Source: a bacterium (GTDB lineage: Bacteria; JALSQH01). From it: a DNA stretch of 11,166 bases. This document shows, in pieces, positions 1-11,166 of the stretch. Position 1 is the stretch's first letter; each line of letters begins with the position of its first letter. The notes below the pieces were generated by a model, which did not search any database, was not told the origin of the DNA, and saw nothing but the letters and a program-made list of their open reading frames with translations. The position numbers and the translations under genes were made by a program. Location: positions 1-11,166 of the forward strand of contig JALSQH010000145.1 of assembly GCA_026985515.1 (NCBI GenBank), in the 5' to 3' direction.

Positions 1-2574
1 GAGCCGTCCATGGTAACCAATCATATTGATTCTCTCACCCACCGTACCCCCCGCCACATGAGTTACAGGGGCTCGATAATAGGGTATCACTACCCCCTCT
101 GAATAATTGGGTACTTCATCAGAGGTGTAAAAGGCATAATACCAGAGGGTATCTGGAGGTTGAGTGACCATTAAACTGCTTCCCTTCCCTCTGAAGAGAA
201 CCTCCCCATCATTATGAGAAAGGGGTACGCCAGTTTTATTTACAATAACTGTGACACCAGCAAAATCATTATTCGGAGGATTTATCCAGGTTATCCTGAA
301 ACTATCCGTTGTAAATGGATCGTGGAAGTTTATGTGGGTCACTTCTCCAGGTGGTTGAACATCTTTAACCTCCACACTAAAAGAGACCGGTTTGGAAAAA
401 TTGTTATTATAATCGTAGGCATAAATGGCATAGTAATAAACATTCCCGGATACCACAGATAGATCAGTAAATTCAGAACTCATCCCCCTCAGCAGAATTA
501 CCCCTTCTGGATCAGTTGGTGAAACTGGATAACCTCCAGTTTTCCTGATAACCTCAACACCTGCAAGATCAGGATCCGAAGGCAGACTCCAGAAGATTTC
601 TACCATGTTACCATCAGGGTCAGAATAGTATGTCACATCCGATACAGGAGATGGAGGCTGACTGTCAAAGGACCTAACTGTTATCTCATACGGTAAAGAA
701 TAATTCTGCCACTCATCGTAAACACAGAAGGTATAGTTATAGTAGGCACCCGAGGCACCGGTGAGGGTGGAATCAAGGAAGGAATCTTCAGGATAAAATA
801 CAGATGCTATCTCATTATCGTTGCATGGGAGAAAGTAATCATCATCTGGACTCTCTGCCATTCTCCGAAGAATCTTCACTCCCTTAACATCGGGATCACC
901 CGGATAAGTCCAGTTAAAGAAGATACTCCCGTCTCTCAATGATTCTGCCTCAACAGAAACAAGGGGATGAGGGGGAGTTGTGTCAATAACTGTGACTGTG
1001 GTTACAGCGGCGGGAGCAAGATTACCCGTTTCATCTCTTGAAGACACAGCGTAACAGAGGTGAGCCCTGTCTGAGGGAAGAGGAGGATTCCTGTCCACAT
1101 ATTCTGATCCCTCCCCTGTCAGAACCACAGGATACCCTTCAGCACTCAGGGACTCAAGCTCATCAGGAGTATACAGATTTTTTCTGCACTTTCCATCAAT
1201 AACATAAAGATTCACCCCTGCAAAGTCTGAATCTCCGGGATTTAACCACTGCAGGTAGACATACCCCTTTTCATCTGAAGAGGCGGTTAGAGAAGTAACA
1301 GGAGAGGGAGGTACGCTGTCATGAGGAATAACAATAGATGTTACCCCTTCACTGTAATTGTATGAAGCATCAAGTGCGTATGCGGTATAGCAGTATTTCC
1401 TGTCATTTATACAACCACCACCGCCGCATGAAAGATCCGTATATGTTGTTGAGGGTCCCGCATAAACAAGCATCCCACTCATGTAAGTTGGACAGGAATC
1501 TGGTGCAACGTAAATCTCAACAAAGGCGAAGTCAGGATCAGATGGATTTTTCCACTCAAGAATTGAACCATTTCCAGGAGGATAGGGTCTGCCGCTAAAA
1601 TTTTCTACAGGAGATGGGGGAACCGTATCAGCCACAACCGGGACAGTAACACTTTTCGTCAGTCCCGTGGTACAATTTTCATACTGATCACAGGAAGTTA
1701 TATGATAAGAAATCGTTTCACCTGTCACGACACCCGTGTCAATATAGACCTCCTCAGTACCGGATGAAGTAAAAAGCAAATTTCCATCTCTGAACAGTTC
1801 AATATGATCAAAATCTGGATCCTCCGGATTAACCCACGAAACCACCACCCTGTCAGTTGCAGGTGAGACATAAAAAGCTTCAACATCTGGTGGAGGAGTA
1901 ATATCAAAGGGTTCAGCCCAGACCATGACTCCGGAGGAATAGTTCCCCGAATCGTCGTAGGTAAACAATCCGTAACAGTATCTGTGAAAATTTTTCACAT
2001 CTCTATCTGTAAATCCTGTCAGCACTCCGTTGTAAAGCACCTCTCCATCTTCGTAACTCTGGGGACAGGAGCCCTCCCTCTTTACCACAATTACACCTTT
2101 AAAATCTGGATCCGGCGGATTTCTCCAGACAATTTTCACAAAGTTCTCCCCCTCTGTAACAGAAACATCATACACCTCTCCCGGTGGAGTGAGATCTGGT
2201 GGAATCTGTGGAATGGCCTGAACCATCACTCCTTTTGAAAAATGTTTACCATCACTGGTGAAAATTTTGTAGTAATAAAGGACACCATTTGAAACTGCGT
2301 CATCATACACTGAGGTGGTGAGGTCAGAGAAATAGATCTCGGTACCATCTGTCACACCCTCTACAGGATAATTCTCCTTCCTTCTCACCATTATCTTCTT
2401 AACATGGGGATCATCGGGAAGAATCCATGAAATCAGGACAAATCTGTCACCCGTCTCAACATTGACCGCTATCACATCTTTCAGTTTCGGAGGAGGAGAA
2501 GGCTTCTCCTTCTCTTTGCCGCAGGAAGAAACAAAAAACACCAGGAAAAGAAGAAAGATTAAAACTCTCTTCAT
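1..2574 (-). CDS. FN3-repeat surface lipoprotein, C-terminus off the left edge
   Basis: The minus-strand frame is open from an ATG at 2574 to base 1 (858 codons, no stop), so the C-terminus is missing. Residues 1-18 form a lipoprotein signal: MKR, a hydrophobic core of Leu, Phe, Ile and Val, then VSSC with the lipidated Cys at 18, followed by GKEKEK. A Pro-rich linker leads into eight FN3-like modules of about 92-112 residues (30 to about 832), joined by hinges such as TPPGEV, VPPSPV and QPPGEV. Most modules have an early W, then NP.DPDF.GV, and a late Y-rich strand ending in D..NYS. From about residue 835 the sequence leaves the repeat pattern, so another domain may follow. Family knowledge and inference: it is exported, lipid-anchored and probably displays an adhesive or binding C-terminal domain. 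The start is supported by the lipobox and a G-rich stretch (GGGGGTG) just upstream. It is transcribed divergently from ffh. The ligand is unknown. Confidence 0.85.
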   Translation of the reverse strand, partial: MKRVLIFLLFLVFFVSSCGKEKEKPSPPPKLKDVIAVNVETGDRFVLISWILPDDPHVKKIMVRRKENYPVEGVTDGTEIYFSDLTTSVYDDAVSNGVLYYYKIFTSDGKHFSKGVMVQAIPQIPPDLTPPGEVYDVSVTEGENFVKIVWRNPPDPDFKGVIVVKREGSCPQSYEDGEVLYNGVLTGFTDRDVKNFHRYCYGLFTYDDSGNYSSGVMVWAEPFDITPPPDVEAFYVSPATDRVVVSWVNPEDPDFDHIELFRDGNLLFTSSGTEEVYIDTGVVTGETISYHITSCDQYENCTTGLTKSVTVPVVADTVPPSPVENFSGRPYPPGNGSILEWKNPSDPDFAFVEIYVAPDSCPTYMSGMLVYAGPSTTYTDLSCGGGGCINDRKYCYTAYALDASYNYSEGVTSIVIPHDSVPPSPVTSLTASSDEKGYVYLQWLNPGDSDFAGVNLYVIDGKCRKNLYTPDELESLSAEGYPVVLTGEGSEYVDRNPPLPSDRAHLCYAVSSRDETGNLAPAAVTTVTVIDTTPPHPLVSVEAESLRDGSIFFNWTYPGDPDVKGVKILRRMAESPDDDYFLPCNDNEIASVFYPEDSFLDSTLTGASGAYYNYTFCVYDEWQNYSLPYEITVRSFDSQPPSPVSDVTYYSDPDGNMVEIFWSLPSDPDLAGVEVIRKTGGYPVSPTDPEGVILLRGMSSEFTDLSVVSGNVYYYAIYAYDYNNNFSKPVSFSVEVKDVQPPGEVTHINFHDPFTTDSFRITWINPPNNDFAGVTVIVNKTGVPLSHNDGEVLFRGKGSSLMVTQPPDTLWYYAFYTSDEVPNYSEGVVIPYYRAPVTHVAGGTVGERINMIGYHGRL
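79..2487 (-). repeat. Eight tandem fibronectin-III-like modules
   Basis: These are protein-level repeats in the lipoprotein. The Pro-Pro hinges begin at residues 130, 227, 319, 422, 534, 640 and 741, giving periods of 97, 92, 103, 112, 106 and 101. The first module starts after PSPPPK at about residue 30. Recurring blocks are W.NP.DPDF.GV (seen as DPDFKGV, DPDFDHI, DPDFAFV, DSDFAGV, DPDVKGV, DPDLAGV and NNDFAGV) and D..NYS near the end of each module. The modules have diverged well beyond recent DNA duplication. Confidence 0.8.
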
Positions 2575-2591
2575 AAGCACCCCCGCTTTAT

Positions 2592-2627
2592 AGTATAGCA
2601 ATAAACGTGCCTTGTAGAAAAGGTCAA
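2592..2627 (-). promoter_or_regulatory. Candidate promoter for the FN3 lipoprotein
   Basis: On the minus strand, TATACT (2597-2592) is preceded by TGC, giving an extended -10 element. TTGACC lies at 2627-2622, but it is 24 bases from that -10, too far for a standard pair. An alternative -10, TTTATT, lies 16 bases after TTGACC. Transcription would begin a few bases before the ATG at 2574. The call rests on consensus matching only. Confidence 0.4.
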
Positions 2628-2735: not shown

Positions 2736-4073
2736 ATGTTTGATCAGCTTTCCGACAGGCTAAACAGTGTAGTAAAGTATCTCAAAGGTCAGGGGAAAAT
2801 AAAGGAAAGCAACATAGAAGAGGCTCTGCGAGAAGTAAGAATCAGTCTCCTTGAAGCCGATGTAAACTACGAAGTTGTTAAGCAATTCGTTGAAGATGTA
2901 AAAAAGAAGGCCCTTGGTCAGGAAGTAATAGGCAGTTTAACACCGGCCCAGCAGTTCATAAAAATTGTTTATGACGAACTTGTGGAAATAATGGGAGGAG
3001 AAACCTCTCTCCCCATGATTTCAGTTTCCCCACCGGCAGTGATAATGCTCGTTGGACTTCAGGGTTCAGGTAAAACAACCACAGCGGCAAAGCTTGGAAT
3101 CTATCTCAAAAAGAAACATAAAAGAACCCCACTGCTGGTTCCTCTTGATGTTAGAAGACCCGCCGCTATTGAACAGTTAAAAGTTCTCGGGAACCAGGCA
3201 CGGCTCTCAGTTTATGATACAGATCCATCAATGAATCCAGTTGAAATAGCAGAAAAGTCAAAAGAATATGCTCTCATGAGAGGTTACGATACAGTCATCT
3301 TTGACACTGCAGGACGTCTCCATATAGATGAAGAATTGATGAAGGAATTGGAAGAGATTGAAAAGGTCTCTGACCCGGCAGAGGTGCTTCTTGTGGCAGA
3401 TGCCATGACGGGACAGGATGCGGTGAATATTGCAAGGGAGTTTGATCAGCGACTGAATCTGACAGGAGTAATTCTCACAAAGGTAGACGGTGACACGAGG
3501 GGTGGAGCAGCCCTGTCAATTAAAGCTGTAACTGGCAAGCCCATTAAATTTATTGGTACAGGAGAAAAGCTGGAAGATATAGACCTGTTCCACCCGGATA
3601 GAATTGCTTCAAGAATACTGGATATGGGAGATATTCTCACCCTTGTGGAAAAGGCTCAGGAAAAGGTGGATCAGAAAAAAGCAGCAAAACTGGCAGAAAA
3701 GATGCTGAAGAATGAGTACACCCTCGAAGATTTCCTCGAACATATTCAGCAGATAAAGAAAATGGGTCCCCTTGAGGATCTGCTCAAGATGATCCCCGGT
3801 GCCAGGCAGATGATGAGGCAGATGAAAAATGCCATACCACCTGATAAAGAACTGAAAAAAATAGAGGCAATCATTCTCTCAATGACAAAAGAGGAGAGAA
3901 GAAATCCGTCAATCATCAATGGATCAAGAAGACAGAGAATAGCACGGGGAAGTGGTACCACCGTTCAGGATGTCAACAGGGTGTTGAAAAGTTTTGTAGA
4001 AATGAGAAAATTAATGAGAAGGATTAACAAAAAGGGACTCAAAGGTATCCCGAGAGGAATGTTACCATTTTAA
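2736..4073 (+). CDS. ffh: Signal recognition particle GTPase SRP54 / Ffh
   Basis: This is the protein subunit of the bacterial signal recognition particle. It binds 4.5S RNA and hydrophobic nascent chains, then docks with FtsY to deliver membrane proteins to the Sec translocon. At 445 residues it has the usual length. The helical N domain covers about 1-95. The G domain shows GLQGSGKT (107-114), DVRRPAA (138-144), DTAGR (190-194) and [10 protein letters not shown] (248-257). The Met-rich M domain covers about 300-435 and carries the RNA-binding motif [11 protein letters not shown] (397-407). The ATG is supported by GAGGAG seven bases upstream and by the typical N-terminal MFDQLSDRL. It is the first gene of the operon, 19 bases before rpsP. 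No key residue is missing. Confidence 0.97.
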
Positions 4074-4092
4074 AAAGGAGGTTACAGGATCA

Positions 4093-4362
4093 ATGGCAGT
4101 AAAGATCAGATTGATGAGGATGGGTGCAAAGGATCAGCCATTTTACAGAATTGTGGCTGCTCACAGTGAATCCCCGAGGGATGGGAGATTTCTGGAAATC
4201 ATAGGATACTACGATGTAAAAAAAGATCCACCGGAAATTAAATTTGATGTGGTAAAATTAAAAAAGTGGCTTGACAATGGAGCAATTCCGACTAAAATTG
4301 TAAAGGATCTGATGAAAAAGGCGAAGGTCAAAGAAAAACTGAAAGAACTGGAGAGCAGGTAA
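4093..4362 (+). CDS. rpsP: 30S ribosomal protein S16
   Basis: S16 is a small-subunit protein that binds 16S rRNA early in assembly. The 89-residue product has the family's N-terminus (MAVKIRL.RMGAK..PFYRIV), then SPRDGRF.E.IGYYD, and the C-terminal W(L)..GA.PT..V block. Its length is typical. A strong Shine-Dalgarno AAGGAGG (4075-4081) lies 11 bases before the ATG, immediately after the ffh stop codon. It is followed 21 bases later by khpA, the common bacterial order. The very basic C-terminal tail [15 protein letters not shown] is normal for the family. Confidence 0.96.
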
Positions 4363-5967: not shown

Positions 5968-6324
5968 ATGATAATTGAAGGGGTTGAAGAAAAGTACATG
6001 AGGAAAGACCTTCCCGAAATTCATCCCGGTGACACCGTAAGGGTATATTTCAAAGTAAAAGAGGGGAACAAGGAGAGAATCCAGCCTTTTGAAGGGATAG
6101 TCATTGCAATCAGAGGAGAAGGAGTAAAAAAGACCTTCACAGTAAGAAAGATCTCCTTTGGGATCGGAGTGGAAAGGATCTTCCCCTATCACTCACCTCT
6201 GATAGAAAAAATCGAGATAAAACAGAGGGGAAGAGTCAGAAGAGCCAAACTCTACTACCTCCGTGGCAAAGTTGGGAAAGCTGCAAAAGTAAAGGCCCTG
6301 AGGAACTTCAAAAAAGAAAGTTAA
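5968..6324 (+). CDS. rplS: 50S ribosomal protein L19
   Basis: L19 is a large-subunit protein at the 30S-50S interface. The 118 residues match the family throughout: PGDTVRV....EG.KERIQ.FEG near 20-45, [17 protein letters not shown] in the middle, and the basic [20 protein letters not shown] at the end. A clear Shine-Dalgarno, AAAGGAGA (5955-5962), overlaps the stop of the upstream methyltransferase gene and sits five bases before the ATG. In most bacteria it ends the rpsP-rimM-trmD-rplS cluster. Here the next gene is an ATPase, starting only nine bases after its stop. Confidence 0.96.
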
Positions 6325-6333
6325 ACATTTTGA

Positions 6334-8250
6334 ATGGAGTTAAAAGAATTTTTCGTTCAGAGTGTTGGGCCATTTTACTCAGCGACAAAATTCTCTTTTA
6401 AAAAGGGACTGAATGTAATCTATGGAAGAAATGGTACCGGGAAAACCACTCTCTCTGTAACTCTCCTCTCCCTCTTCGATGAAGAATTTTCACTTAAAAA
6501 TCGTGAAAAATTGAAACCATGGGTTCCACAGGATACCCCTCCCCGTGCTGGAATTATCTTCACCCGTGAAAACAGGGTGTTCAAATACCTGAAGGATTTT
6601 GAATCTGGTGGATCAATTCTCCAGGAGAAAAAGGATGGTAAATTTACCCCTGTTGCCAGAGGAAAGGAAATAGAAAATCTTTTCATTGATGAGCTGGATC
6701 TTCCCATAGCAGGGGATCTGAGAGAAATGATTTACATACCTGAAAAAATTGAATTTCCTGTGACAGTGGAGAGTTCCACACCTGCCTTTGAATCTTCACC
6801 CTTTGAGGGCTTTGAAATGGCTTCAGAACCTCACCCCTCAGAAAACAGGGAGGAGAGACTGAAAATTTTGAAAGAGGAGCTGGAACGAGCCGAGAGAATA
6901 GAAGAACTTGAATTCAAGATGGAGGGACTTGAACAGAAGCTCTTTGACCTCAATGAAAAGGTGGGTGAAATCAAAGAAATAGAAAAAGAGGTGGAAAAAT
7001 TAAATGCCTTCATTAATAAGTATTCAGAAATTCAGAACTTTCCGGTGGATTTTAAAGAAAAACTTTTAAAGGTAAAAGATCTGGAAAGGGAAGCTGAGGA
7101 GTTAGAGGAGGAACTTAAAGAAAAAGAAGAGGAACTGGGAGAAGAAGTTGAAAGCATCAAATCCTCATTCAAAAAGTATCAAAGGGATCCAAAATTTATT
7201 GCTGCCGTGGTTGTCACCCTTCTGGGATTTATTCTTCCCAATGTAACTCATCTACCGGGATGGTTTGTATTCTTTGGACTTGGCGGAATAGTTTTTACAG
7301 TCTACCTTATAACAGTCTTCTATCCCTCTCATGAAAAGACGATAAAAGAGAAAGAGGAAAATGCAAAAACAATTCTTGACGAAGAAAAGAAAAAGATAAA
7401 AAGCATCAGAGACGAAGTGAAGGTTTTCTATGAACTGGGAGAGTATCTGGGCGTCAGCGATCCCAAGGAGATTGGAAAATTGATTGATGGATTCTGGGCA
7501 TCGGTGAGAAAAAGGGAAGAGCTTGAAAAGGAGTTGCAGAGAAAAAAAGAGGAAATTAACTACGAGGAAGTTGAGGAGAAAAGGAGGGAAATAGAGGAGG
7601 AAATATCGAGAATAAAAGAGGAACTTCAGGAACTTGGAAGACCAACCATGGACATAAACACACTGAAACAGGAAATTGCAAAACTGGAGGGGAAGAAAGA
7701 AGCCCCTGAAACTACCCCGGATGTGGGATTTTCCACCTTTTCGGACCAGGGCTTCGAAGCCATGCCGGTGGAGGAGAACAATGAAGCTCCACAGGTGTTT
7801 AAAAAGTTGCTTCAGTTAGGAGAAAAACTCTCCAGAAGAACAACTGATCAGTTAATTGCAGGGGTTCAGGACCGCTTTGACAGGTATCTCACCTTTCTCA
7901 GCAACAGAAGATTTATCAAAGCGACAATAGAAGAGGATTACTCCATAACCTTTACCTGTGCTCCTGCAGACAGAGAAGTGAGGTGGCATCTTCTATCTGA
8001 AGGGGATCTTATGATAATTTACCTTGCCCTATATCTCAGCATTGTTGAACTGGTTTCCCTCAACAGGAATCTTCCCCTCATCGTGGATAATTCCTTCAGT
8101 CAGTTAGATGACTCAACTTTTACCCTTCTCCTGAAGTTACTGAGAAAAATGGGTGAAAAGATCCAGATTATCCTCTTTTCCGGGAGGGAAATTGCTTTAA
8201 AGGCAGCTCACCATTCACTGAAATTGGGAGATCTATCCGGTGCTGTTTAA
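6334..8250 (+). CDS. SMC/RecF-like ABC-type ATPase with a transmembrane hairpin in its coiled coil
   Basis: The 638-residue protein has a split ATPase head. The N-terminal lobe carries Walker A GRNGTGKT (31-38). The C-terminal lobe carries a signature-like LSEGD (554-558), Walker B LPLIVDN (580-586) and D-loop SQLDD (589-593). Between the lobes are Glu/Lys-rich coiled coils (about 165-285 and 332-455), separated by two hydrophobic segments (about 288-304 and 309-329). The ends of the coiled coil are therefore membrane-anchored. The architecture resembles YhaN, an SbcC-like protein with central membrane segments, but it is shorter and no SbcD-like nuclease is nearby. The usual Walker B Glu is Asn here. 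No good Shine-Dalgarno precedes the ATG, although the N-terminus fits the fold. It lies nine bases after rplS and overlaps rnhB by 11. A role in DNA maintenance or at the envelope is inference. Confidence 0.75.
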   Translation: MELKEFFVQSVGPFYSATKFSFKKGLNVIYGRNGTGKTTLSVTLLSLFDEEFSLKNREKLKPWVPQDTPPRAGIIFTRENRVFKYLKDFESGGSILQEKKDGKFTPVARGKEIENLFIDELDLPIAGDLREMIYIPEKIEFPVTVESSTPAFESSPFEGFEMASEPHPSENREERLKILKEELERAERIEELEFKMEGLEQKLFDLNEKVGEIKEIEKEVEKLNAFINKYSEIQNFPVDFKEKLLKVKDLEREAEELEEELKEKEEELGEEVESIKSSFKKYQRDPKFIAAVVVTLLGFILPNVTHLPGWFVFFGLGGIVFTVYLITVFYPSHEKTIKEKEENAKTILDEEKKKIKSIRDEVKVFYELGEYLGVSDPKEIGKLIDGFWASVRKREELEKELQRKKEEINYEEVEEKRREIEEEISRIKEELQELGRPTMDINTLKQEIAKLEGKKEAPETTPDVGFSTFSDQGFEAMPVEENNEAPQVFKKLLQLGEKLSRRTTDQLIAGVQDRFDRYLTFLSNRRFIKATIEEDYSITFTCAPADREVRWHLLSEGDLMIIYLALYLSIVELVSLNRNLPLIVDNSFSQLDDSTFTLLLKLLRKMGEKIQIILFSGREIALKAAHHSLKLGDLSGAV

Positions 8251-8860
8251 AAAGCCTGGAATAAGTTTTGAGTGGGAAGATTACCTGATCTCCAGAGGAT
8301 TAACGCCTGTTGCAGGAATAGATGAAGCTGGAAGGGGTCCCCTCGCAGGGCCTGTGGTGGCAGCAGCGGCAATAATACTTGACAGAGAAAGTATCATCAA
8401 ATCGGGTATCAATGATTCAAAACAACTGGACAGAGAAAGGAGGGAAGAACTTTTTGAGTGGCTGATAAACTCAGAAGTTCTCATATGGGGAGCAGGAGCT
8501 GCAAGTGTAAGGGAAATTGAGAAATTTAACATTCTCAATGCCACATTCATTGCCATGAAAAGGGCAATAAACAATCTCCCCCTCAAACCAGGTGCGGTCC
8601 TTATAGATGGTAACAGAAAAATTCCCGACCTTACCATTTTTCAGGCCACCGTTGTAAAGGGAGACAGTAAGAGCTACTCCATTGCGGCAGCATCCATTAT
8701 TGCAAAGGTTCTGAGAGACAGACTGATGAGAAAGCTGGCAAATTTCTACCCACAGTACGGATGGGAAAGAAATGTGGGGTATCCCACGAAGGACCATAAG
8801 AGAATGATAAAAAAAATTGGAATAACTCCCCACCACAGAAAGAGCTTCATACATGAATAA
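8240..8860 (+). CDS. rnhB: Ribonuclease HII
   Basis: RNase HII cleaves the RNA strand of RNA-DNA hybrids and starts removal of single ribonucleotides from DNA. The 206 residues have the family motif GIDEAGRGPLAGPV (26-39) with catalytic Asp28 and Glu29, then INDSKQL (57-63), LIDGN with Asp123, KGDSKS.SIAAASI.AKV (140-157), and RD with Asp160. GYPTKDH and HHRKSF close the domain. The length is typical. The start is GTG at 8240, inside the end of the ATPase gene (11-base overlap), with GGGAG (8226-8230) nine bases upstream. No better in-frame start lies before the conserved core. It overlaps yraN by 8 bases, and the rnhB-yraN pairing is common. Confidence 0.95.
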   Translation: MLFKKPGISFEWEDYLISRGLTPVAGIDEAGRGPLAGPVVAAAAIILDRESIIKSGINDSKQLDRERREELFEWLINSEVLIWGAGAASVREIEKFNILNATFIAMKRAINNLPLKPGAVLIDGNRKIPDLTIFQATVVKGDSKSYSIAAASIIAKVLRDRLMRKLANFYPQYGWERNVGYPTKDHKRMIKKIGITPHHRKSFIHE

Positions 8861-9218
8861 CAGGGAAAAGGGAAGAATTGCTGAAAATCTCGCTGAGGCA
8901 TACTACAGATTCAGGGGTTACAGGGTGGTTGCCAGAAATTTTCATTCACATTATGGTGAAATTGATCTGATACTGGAGAAAGGAAGAGAATTGAGAATTG
9001 TGGAGGTAAAATCCTCCTGGTACAGAATAAGAGATAGAAATGAACTGGGTAACAGAGTAACAAGAAGAAAAATCAGACACTTAGCTTTTGCACTTGAGAA
9101 ATTCCTTTCAATCAATGGAAGTAACTTTGAGAACAGAAGCTTCATCTTTGAAGTTCTTTTCGTGCTGGTGGGAAGGGAACATATTGAATTCCTCCCCTTC
9201 TCAGCTCCCGCAATTTAG
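8853..9218 (+). CDS. yraN: YraN family protein (UPF0102), nuclease-fold
   Basis: This is a small conserved protein with an endonuclease-like fold, whose role is poorly defined and perhaps lies in DNA processing. The 121 residues show G..AE..A..Y (7-17), RGYRVVARNFHSHYGEIDLI (21-40) and IVEVKSS (49-55). Together these give the E..D...E.K arrangement of restriction-endonuclease-like enzymes (Glu36, Asp38, Glu51, Lys53). Family members commonly have EVK.R here; Ser-Ser replaces the usual following residues. The length is typical. The ATG overlaps the end of rnhB by 8 bases, so translation is probably coupled. It is the last plus-strand gene of the operon in this window. Confidence 0.9.
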   Translation: MNNREKGRIAENLAEAYYRFRGYRVVARNFHSHYGEIDLILEKGRELRIVEVKSSWYRIRDRNELGNRVTRRKIRHLAFALEKFLSINGSNFENRSFIFEVLFVLVGREHIEFLPFSAPAI

Positions 9219-9303
9219 CATATTTTTGCAATGGACATTACCCCCTACCCCAATTCCTGCTTTATCATGAATTACCATGAATCTGGTTAAAGAGGGAGTC
9301 ACT

Positions 9304-11166
9304 TTACCCCTTTTTCGCCTCCTGAGATCTGGCCTTCTCCATTTTTACTCTTTCCTGCTCTCTGAGCCTCTCCTCAGTCACCTTCAACATATCTGATATG
9401 GCTCCAATATGCTCTCTGAAAATTGAAAGGAAATTCTCTTTGTCAAGCCATAACAACTTACAATCTGTTACAGCCCTGACAGTTGCAGTCCTTGGTACAT
9501 CTTTAAGGAGTGCAATTTCGCCAAAATAGGAGCCAGGTCCAAGTTCAGCCAGCTTTATCTCCCTGTAATAATCATCAGTTATCTGCTCAAGAATGACCTC
9601 AACTTTCCCTTCCTGGAGGAGATAAAACTTATCTCCCCTTTCTCCCTGTTTAATGATGGTTGTCCCCGCAGAAACTTCCATTGGTTTCATTTTACTTACA
9701 ATTTCCAGAAGTTCTCTTGAGGAAAAGTCGCTGAAAAGGGGTAACCTTCTGAGAAATTGAGAGGTTCTGATGATAAATGTGATCTTCTCCCCGGGGCCAA
9801 AAGTTCCCATCAGGTACTTCCTGAAGGGCTCTTTTTCAAGTGAGATCAGTTCAATATCTGTTTTTGCTCTAACAGTTGCCGTTCTCTTTACATTCTCAAT
9901 GAGGGCTATTTCACCAAAGCAATCTCCCGGTCCAAGTTCCGCCACCACATGCTCCAGTCCGCTCTTCTCTTCATATATGACATCTGCGTAACCTGATCTT
10001 ATAGTGTAGAACTTGTCCCCTTCCTCACCCTGAGTAACGATGTTCCTGCCTGCAGGGAATTTCTCAACCCTGAGAAACTTCATAATTTCACGAAGTTCAC
10101 TTTCAGGAAGGGCGGAAAAGAGGGGAACCTGTTTCAATTCCTCAAGCATTTCCGGCTCAAAAGGTCTCACTATCCCCTTACCTGACTGAAATCTGAGCAT
10201 GGCCTCTTTTATCACCGAAACCACAAGAGCCACAAATCTGATAATCAGATAGGCAATCAGAAGCACGGCAAGAATTACAGCGGGGAGGAAGAGAAGCACA
10301 GTGAATACCCTGTAACCAGGAGGTTCAAAAATGAAGATGTCACCAAAGGCTGGATTAAGATAATACACACCTTCAATGGCGTCATAGAGGAAAATTATGT
10401 TGAAAATCTTAAAAGAAACATAACCGAGGAGAACAAGCCAGAGGAGTCCATAAAGTCCCACCAGTGTATAAATCAGCTCCTCTCTGTAAGATTCCTTTGA
10501 AAGTTCCATCTTTCCCAGGAAAAAACGCCTTCTGAAAAAGGTGATGGTCCTCAGCCTGAGCTGGGAGATGTTGAAAATCTCCTCAAAAAGTTTTACTCCA
10601 TCACTTTCAATAAACGGAATTGTTTGCAGAAAAATCATCAGAAGGGAGGTAAAAGTTGTCAATGATGCTATCTGGATGTATGAATTCCATTCACCCTGAT
10701 AGAAAATAAAAAATGGTGCCATAACAGCAATCGGGAAGAGATAGGAGATGAAAACCCCGGAATAATAAAATACCTTTTCTCTCCTTGACGACATTATTAC
10801 ATCAGCATCATCAACTCGGGGGAAAATCAAGCCATACAGAAAGTACAATTCAAGATTGAGAACACTGCGTTCCACAGCCTTCAGGCCAAGTCCTTTTATA
10901 AAAGCACGGTTAAAAAAGAGGAAAAGTACTACAAAGTAGGTAATAGTAAAACCCAGACCATACGACTCATTAACCTGAAAAAGATAATGGGGGACAGAGG
11001 ACATTTCACTGAAAAAGAGAATTATTCCCAGTACAGCAAGAATAAGAATGAGAGAGATCATGAAGGGACTGAAAACAAACTTCCCCATAAAATTGTACAG
11101 AGACTCAAAAAAGCCTTCAGCTGCATAGTAACCTGTCTGAAAGAACTTTATTCCTCTGAATAACTC
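9304..11166 (-). CDS. M50-metalloprotease-like membrane protein lacking HExxH, fused to two cyclic-nucleotide-binding domains; N-terminus off the right edge
   Basis: The frame stays open past the first visible ATG (11088) to the window edge, and those 26 extra residues (FFQTGYYAAEGFF and so on) read as protein, so the true start is outside. Residues below count from that Met. The membrane part (1-290) has several hydrophobic segments and aligns by eye with M50-type peptide zinc metalloproteases: YFLYGLIFP.VDDADV (82-97), SSRREKV..Y.GV (100-112) and IPFIESDG (157-164, the usual NP..P.DG.Y region). The HExxH position reads NRAFI (60-64), and no HExxH occurs anywhere visible, so the protease is probably inactive. 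Two cyclic-nucleotide-binding domains follow (323-426 and 451-558), each with an intact phosphate-binding cassette. The tail is charged and helical. Inference: a membrane receptor for cAMP/cGMP-like ligands. The M50 relationship is the less certain part. Confidence 0.8.
   Translation of the reverse strand, partial: ELFRGIKFFQTGYYAAEGFFESLYNFMGKFVFSPFMISLILILAVLGIILFFSEMSSVPHYLFQVNESYGLGFTITYFVVLFLFFNRAFIKGLGLKAVERSVLNLELYFLYGLIFPRVDDADVIMSSRREKVFYYSGVFISYLFPIAVMAPFFIFYQGEWNSYIQIASLTTFTSLLMIFLQTIPFIESDGVKLFEEIFNISQLRLRTITFFRRRFFLGKMELSKESYREELIYTLVGLYGLLWLVLLGYVSFKIFNIIFLYDAIEGVYYLNPAFGDIFIFEPPGYRVFTVLLFLPAVILAVLLIAYLIIRFVALVVSVIKEAMLRFQSGKGIVRPFEPEMLEELKQVPLFSALPESELREIMKFLRVEKFPAGRNIVTQGEEGDKFYTIRSGYADVIYEEKSGLEHVVAELGPGDCFGEIALIENVKRTATVRAKTDIELISLEKEPFRKYLMGTFGPGEKITFIIRTSQFLRRLPLFSDFSSRELLEIVSKMKPMEVSAGTTIIKQGERGDKFYLLQEGKVEVILEQITDDYYREIKLAELGPGSYFGEIALLKDVPRTATVRAVTDCKLLWLDKENFLSIFREHIGAISDMLKVTEERLREQERVKMEKARSQEAKKG
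9415..10122 (-). repeat. Tandem cyclic-nucleotide-binding domains
   Basis: Two homologous domains occupy residues 323-426 and 451-558 of the membrane protein, counted from the Met at 11088. Shared blocks are PLFS at the start, AG..I..QGE.GDKFY, ELGPG..FGEIAL and RTATVRA. Each cassette keeps the Glu (FGE) and Arg (RTATV) that bind the ribose and phosphate of cyclic nucleotides in CAP/PKA-type domains. Confidence 0.9.

Follow-up and report, generated by a model that had tools for sequence, protein, structure and literature searches.

A predicted M50 pseudoprotease core attached to tandem cyclic-nucleotide-binding domains in a bacterial membrane protein

In animals, rhomboid-type pseudoproteases act in signalling. 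In the M50 family, this kind of protein is already known from plants: EGY3, an M50 pseudoprotease of the Arabidopsis chloroplast, is devoid of HExxH and keeps a cellular role according to the accessible part of its description, in which neither a PqqD domain nor cyclic-nucleotide sensors are mentioned (PMC10978774). RiPP pathways contain RRE-dependent intramembrane peptidases (daptide MpaP, represented by NCBIfam NF041824, and YydH/LiaK) in which an RRE/PqqD-like domain is combined with an M50 core. MpaP cleaves off leader peptides (PMC10036551), and domains of the PqqD/RRE type serve for peptide binding in these pathways. Finally, PKA regulatory subunits and PKG contain two tandem cNMP-binding domains with intact phosphate cassettes. 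In the open-access literature, nothing was found on an M50 core joined to cNMP domains, nor on any bacterial pseudo-M50 linked to cyclic nucleotides.

A gene showing likenesses to each of these systems was analysed at the right end of contig JALSQH010000145.1, whose 11,166 nucleotides are referred to as the window. The reading frame overruns the contig end, and its upstream sequence was recovered by searching the same genome with the membrane part of the ORF. The contig obtained, G000:C146, starts with 135 bases which correspond to the window end with one mismatch, the last 127 being identical, as an assembly graph would produce. After joining at the overlap, the full protein has 747 amino acids and is composed of a PqqD-like domain, an M50-like membrane core and two tandem cNMP-binding domains. 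The features are the following (window positions unless the contig is named).

9304..11166, minus strand: C-terminal 620 residues (128-747) of the PqqD / pseudo-M50 / cNMP-cNMP protein; the ORF overruns the right contig end.
G000:C146, 136-516, minus strand: first 127 residues of the 747-aa protein, located on the adjoining contig of this genome.
10513..11082, minus strand: predicted pseudo-M50 membrane core (residues ~156-345), from the active-only HMM and NF041824.
10894..10908, minus strand: former HExxH, RAFIK (residues 214-218), from MAFFT and HMM alignments; EALTR in the sister genus.
10798..10815, minus strand: VDDADV, equivalent of the VDTSD scaffold motif; its second Asp (249) is shared by every member compared.
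10774..10791, minus strand: SSRREK block, following the VDTSD equivalent; it has Lys at position 258, where active members invariably have Arg.
10597..10608, minus strand: ESDG, corresponding to LDG, the third-ligand motif; Asp316 is kept, and the sister has ESPG, with Pro.
10168..10512, minus strand: hydrophobic segments behind the core, and the linker leading to the sensors (residues ~346-460), from hydropathy.
9781..10134, minus strand: cNMP-binding domain 1 (residues 472-589), PF00027.
9871..9927, minus strand: phosphate-binding cassette 1, GDCFGEIALIENVKRTATV, Glu and Arg intact.
9397..9750, minus strand: cNMP-binding domain 2 (residues 600-717), PF00027; PKA-R and PKG chains in the PDB.
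9478..9534, minus strand: phosphate-binding cassette 2, GSYFGEIALLKDVPRTATV, intact.

We consider, with a probability of about 0.62, that the protein is a dead relative of the RRE/PqqD-type M50 intramembrane proteases, the core of which survives as a scaffold joined to a tandem cyclic-nucleotide sensor resembling that of PKA. If true, the linkage of an M50 pseudoprotease to a second messenger in a bacterium would mean that proteases have been reused here along the path known from animal rhomboids and plant EGY3. NF041824 (daptide biosynthesis intramembrane metalloprotease) is the closest curated family model, but with 379 positions it is too short to include cNMP sensors and it describes active proteins, whereas the window protein is deprived of the zinc site. 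Compared with PKA and PKG, the sensors have no kinase partner and are attached to a membrane core. EGY3 shares with the window protein the absence of HExxH from an M50 homologue but is a plant chloroplast protein, and the two losses would be separate events. The same domain order, core and tandem sensors are encountered in active PqqD-M50-cNMP proteins (L011/G044, L018/G088 and L113/G669), presumably cNMP-controlled intramembrane proteases; these differ in that HExxH and LDG are kept, the longer ones having extra membrane segments between core and sensors. Beside the active gene of G044 (L011:4270-7227(+)) lies a gene for a protein which reads as FHA-GGDEF-like (3218-4147(+)).

The homology of the membrane part was assayed with a profile restricted to 65 active members and to a 162-position core, the PqqD and cNMP regions being left out; since only active members entered the profile, the test is free of circularity. 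The window protein scored 46.1 bits and was aligned end to end over the 162 positions, whereas 500 window shuffles reached 7.7 bits at best and 139 unrelated ORFs 6.3 bits. The sister protein from a second genus scored 29.5 bits, and two other relatives devoid of HExxH, L037 and L122, scored 36.0 and 142. The family profile matches the solved M50 protease 3b4r (MJ0392) from HExxH through DG (E=3.1e-4). Residues 1-460 of the window protein match NF041824 with 26 bits (E=4.7e-6), below the curated cut-off of 300 bits, the active relatives giving E-values of ~1e-41 to 1e-44. PF02163 (Peptidase_M50) did not match above the Pfam gathering cut-off in scans of the window protein; it is matched by 8 of 12 aligned family members, and PF05402 (PqqD) by 5 of the 12. 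The N-terminus of the window protein aligns with those of its relatives and is itself below any PqqD model. The blocks on which the earlier note had based its M50 assignment (YFLYGLIFP-VDDADV, SSRREKV and IPFIESDG) are all present in ORF 9304-11166(-) and align with the active PqqD-M50-cNMP proteins nearly without gaps. The spacing of roughly 100 residues that it had reported is also borne out, with 102 residues from the first former His to the Asp in the window protein (214 to 316) and 100 in the active G044 protein. The profile scores show that the membrane part is homologous to M50. AlphaFold2, run twice on the two-sequence alignment of window and sister proteins, gave models of low confidence (pLDDT 34 and 44) for want of a deeper alignment, and the M50 fold is predicted from sequence homology. 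By a crude hydropathy method, about six hydrophobic stretches were counted in the membrane part; an even number would leave both ends of the protein, PqqD-like domain and sensors, on one side of the membrane, presumably the cytosolic one.

In the HExxH columns, the active relatives read HELAH, HEGAH, HELSH and similar sequences. The earlier note had placed NRAFI at this position, which is off by one residue, as the MAFFT and HMM alignments agree in placing RAFIK in these columns. Its central statement holds: the metal-binding His and the catalytic Glu are gone in the window protein as well as in its sister. An HExxH motif was absent throughout the window ORF and the recovered 127-residue N-terminus, the then missing part in which such a motif could have been hidden and which encodes the PqqD-like domain. 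The Asp of the third-ligand region, numbered Asp163 from the ATG at 11088 and corresponding to Asp316 of the full protein, is kept as had been claimed, but it is not conserved, the sister having Pro. At the position of the second zinc His, Lys is found in the window protein, Arg in the sister and Lys in G189. Among the 45 columns conserved in at least 75% of the active members of the clade, the window protein keeps 15 and the sister 11, compared with 35-45 in active members. The losses include the two zinc His and the catalytic Glu, together with the Asn that precedes NP and the LAGP Gly-Pro; the residues kept in both proteins are mostly those of the scaffold (Gly174, Lys223, Arg227, Val229, Asp249, Pro311, Glu314, Gly317, Leu330, Arg331 and Phe337). 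Such a pattern is that expected of an old pseudoenzyme rather than of one recent mutation.

The sister gene is nearly full length and is located on contig JALTID010000192.1 of G001, the other of the two genomes of this phylum that were compared. The first 460 residues of the two proteins are 56% identical; by part, identity amounts to 65% for the PqqD-like domain, 55% for the core and 77 and 80% for the cNMP domains, which are thus the most conserved part between the two genera. The ORF is intact in both, and dN is ~0.15-0.40, synonymous changes being saturated or nearly so, for which reason only the contrast dN < dS was used. The gene is read as a maintained pseudoprotease because its ORF is intact in two genera and dN is lower than dS. 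A database scan for close relatives with the single protein retrieved none, and the same scan with the two-sequence alignment retrieved the sister contig alone; a scan of viral contigs gave none. The gene neighbours are not conserved between the two genera; among 51 neighbours from 17 loci, no family was present at more than two.

To what extent HExxH has been lost was surveyed by searching ~840 genomes and inspecting ~110 family members at the motif. The earlier note had asked whether the loss is clade-wide; this is so for the two genomes of the phylum, which both lack HExxH, but not for the wider family, where the motif is kept in nearly all members. The six without it are the window protein (RAFIK), its sister (EALTR), L037 of G189 (YCLGK), L122 of G541 (YQVAQ), L030 of G269 (QELGH, in which the first His is lost and a stop occurs before LDG) and L024 of G085 (HQLVH, in which E to Q is the sole change in the motif). 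Five of the six have cNMP domains, in numbers too small and among members too related to establish an association. On the tree, HExxH must have changed independently three times or more. In the full tree L037 groups with the window clade, a placement for which the program flags meeting long branches, so that this joining is uncertain; when L037 was left out, the window clade was found with the active L013 (G044) and L018 (G088), with an SH-aLRT of 98. The L037 protein (L130:2629-5439(+)) is a PqqD-M50-like-cNMP-cNMP protein with PSDG kept and both cNMP cassettes intact, and G189 and the active G044 belong to one two-genome phylum. In another phylum, L122 (L131:4148-6379(-) of G541) is a second PqqD-M50-cNMP-cNMP pseudoprotease, with LDLDG kept; no active paralogue of it was found in G541. 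Among the other members, L067 (G454) reads HDLGH, with Glu changed to Asp, and FNSDG, its activity being putative, and L149 (G549:C257) carries three cNMP domains ahead of an active core.

The earlier proposal that the core is attached to cNMP-binding domains was confirmed by the two tandem domains downstream of it. In the Pfam scan of the window part, PF00027 matched in two stretches (E=7.9e-47), these being the sole significant matches. The solved relatives of these domains are headed by PKG and PKA regulatory chains, with RI-alpha matching across both (E ~1e-36). Both cassettes of the window protein, FGEIALIENVKRTATV and FGEIALLKDVPRTATV, are intact, and so are those of the sister. Two class III cyclases were recognized in the same genome by reading their sequences, one with FHA- and GAF-like parts and the other with a CHASE2-like part. 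Both display a Lys...Thr pattern, which we take to be usual in class IIIb adenylate cyclases, and this makes cAMP the likeliest ligand of the predicted sensors. At L132 of G269 (6028-7716(-) and 7716-9626(-)), the degenerate cNMP-cNMP-PqqD-M50 gene reading QELGH has a gene for a CHASE2-class III cyclase as its immediate neighbour, in the same orientation. The active members of the G060 clade (L012, L143 and L144) have intact HExxH and LDG, and the cNMP phosphate-cassette motif was not found in them, the reverse of the window protein; protease and sensor therefore seem to decay independently. Active protease with intact sensors, active protease with decayed sensors (G060 clade) and dead protease with intact sensors (window) form a natural comparison set, with which the effect of the sensor on the membrane core could be addressed.

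Since the cutting residues are lost and the two cyclic-nucleotide sensors are intact, the protein is likely to sense cAMP and to hold a partner that it does not cleave, and the gene product would probably be under cAMP control. In the proposed mechanism, cAMP would bind the two cytosolic sensor domains and shift the conformation of the membrane core and of the PqqD-like arm. As the zinc site is gone, a partner, either a peptide or a membrane protein, would be reversibly captured or released rather than cleaved. The earlier note spoke of a receptor, and such a role may be supposed. In a more specific and tentative version, the protein would be a signalling receptor of a cyclic-nucleotide-gated pseudo-intramembrane-protease type: cAMP would switch, in one direction or the other, the access of a membrane peptide to what was the M50 substrate groove, and the Lys or Arg at the second zinc-His position would perhaps replace the charge of the lost zinc. 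We regard as rather unlikely an iRhom-like regulator, whose dead core would bind, under cAMP control, clients or subunits of the active M50 proteases of the genome. Rhomboid pseudoproteases do act by binding protease clients, as stated in the accessible part of PMC3149277, and the genome contains three ordinary M50 matches over the Pfam cut-off; these are distant, however, and an active member of the PqqD-M50-cNMP subfamily was not found in the genome itself, in the sister, in G189 or in G541.

Other explanations deny the scaffold role of the core. The retention of only 15 of the 45 highly conserved core positions in the window protein and 11 in the sister could reflect a rotted protease gene without function, the ORF of which is still unbroken. 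This is very improbable and largely refuted by the intact sister gene: the ORF has survived in two genera, and the dead core has kept 55% identity while synonymous sites are saturated, with 77-80% in the sensors. Slightly less credible still is an enzyme using another metal site or another chemistry in the same pocket, for which Asp316 and nearby acidic residues are available in the window species; the candidate ligands are not common to the sister (RAFIK versus EALTR, ESDG versus ESPG). The absence of a Pfam M50 match to the window protein would suit a chance resemblance among hydrophobic segments, the membrane part not being M50 at all. We give this next to no weight, since the active-only profile gave 46 bits end to end where no composition-matched shuffle exceeded 7.7, and since the PqqD-like domain lies ahead and the cNMP domains behind, as in the M50 relatives. 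A dead M50 core maintained as a scaffold is the reading that we retain.

Two other genes of the window were noted. At its left end, the ORF 1-2601(-), truncated by the contig end, is lipoprotein-like and contains repeated segments of the fibronectin type. Between rplS-like and rnhB-like genes, 6334-8250(+) encodes an ATPase-like protein of 638 amino acids with GRNGTGKTT near its start and a long coiled-coil middle.
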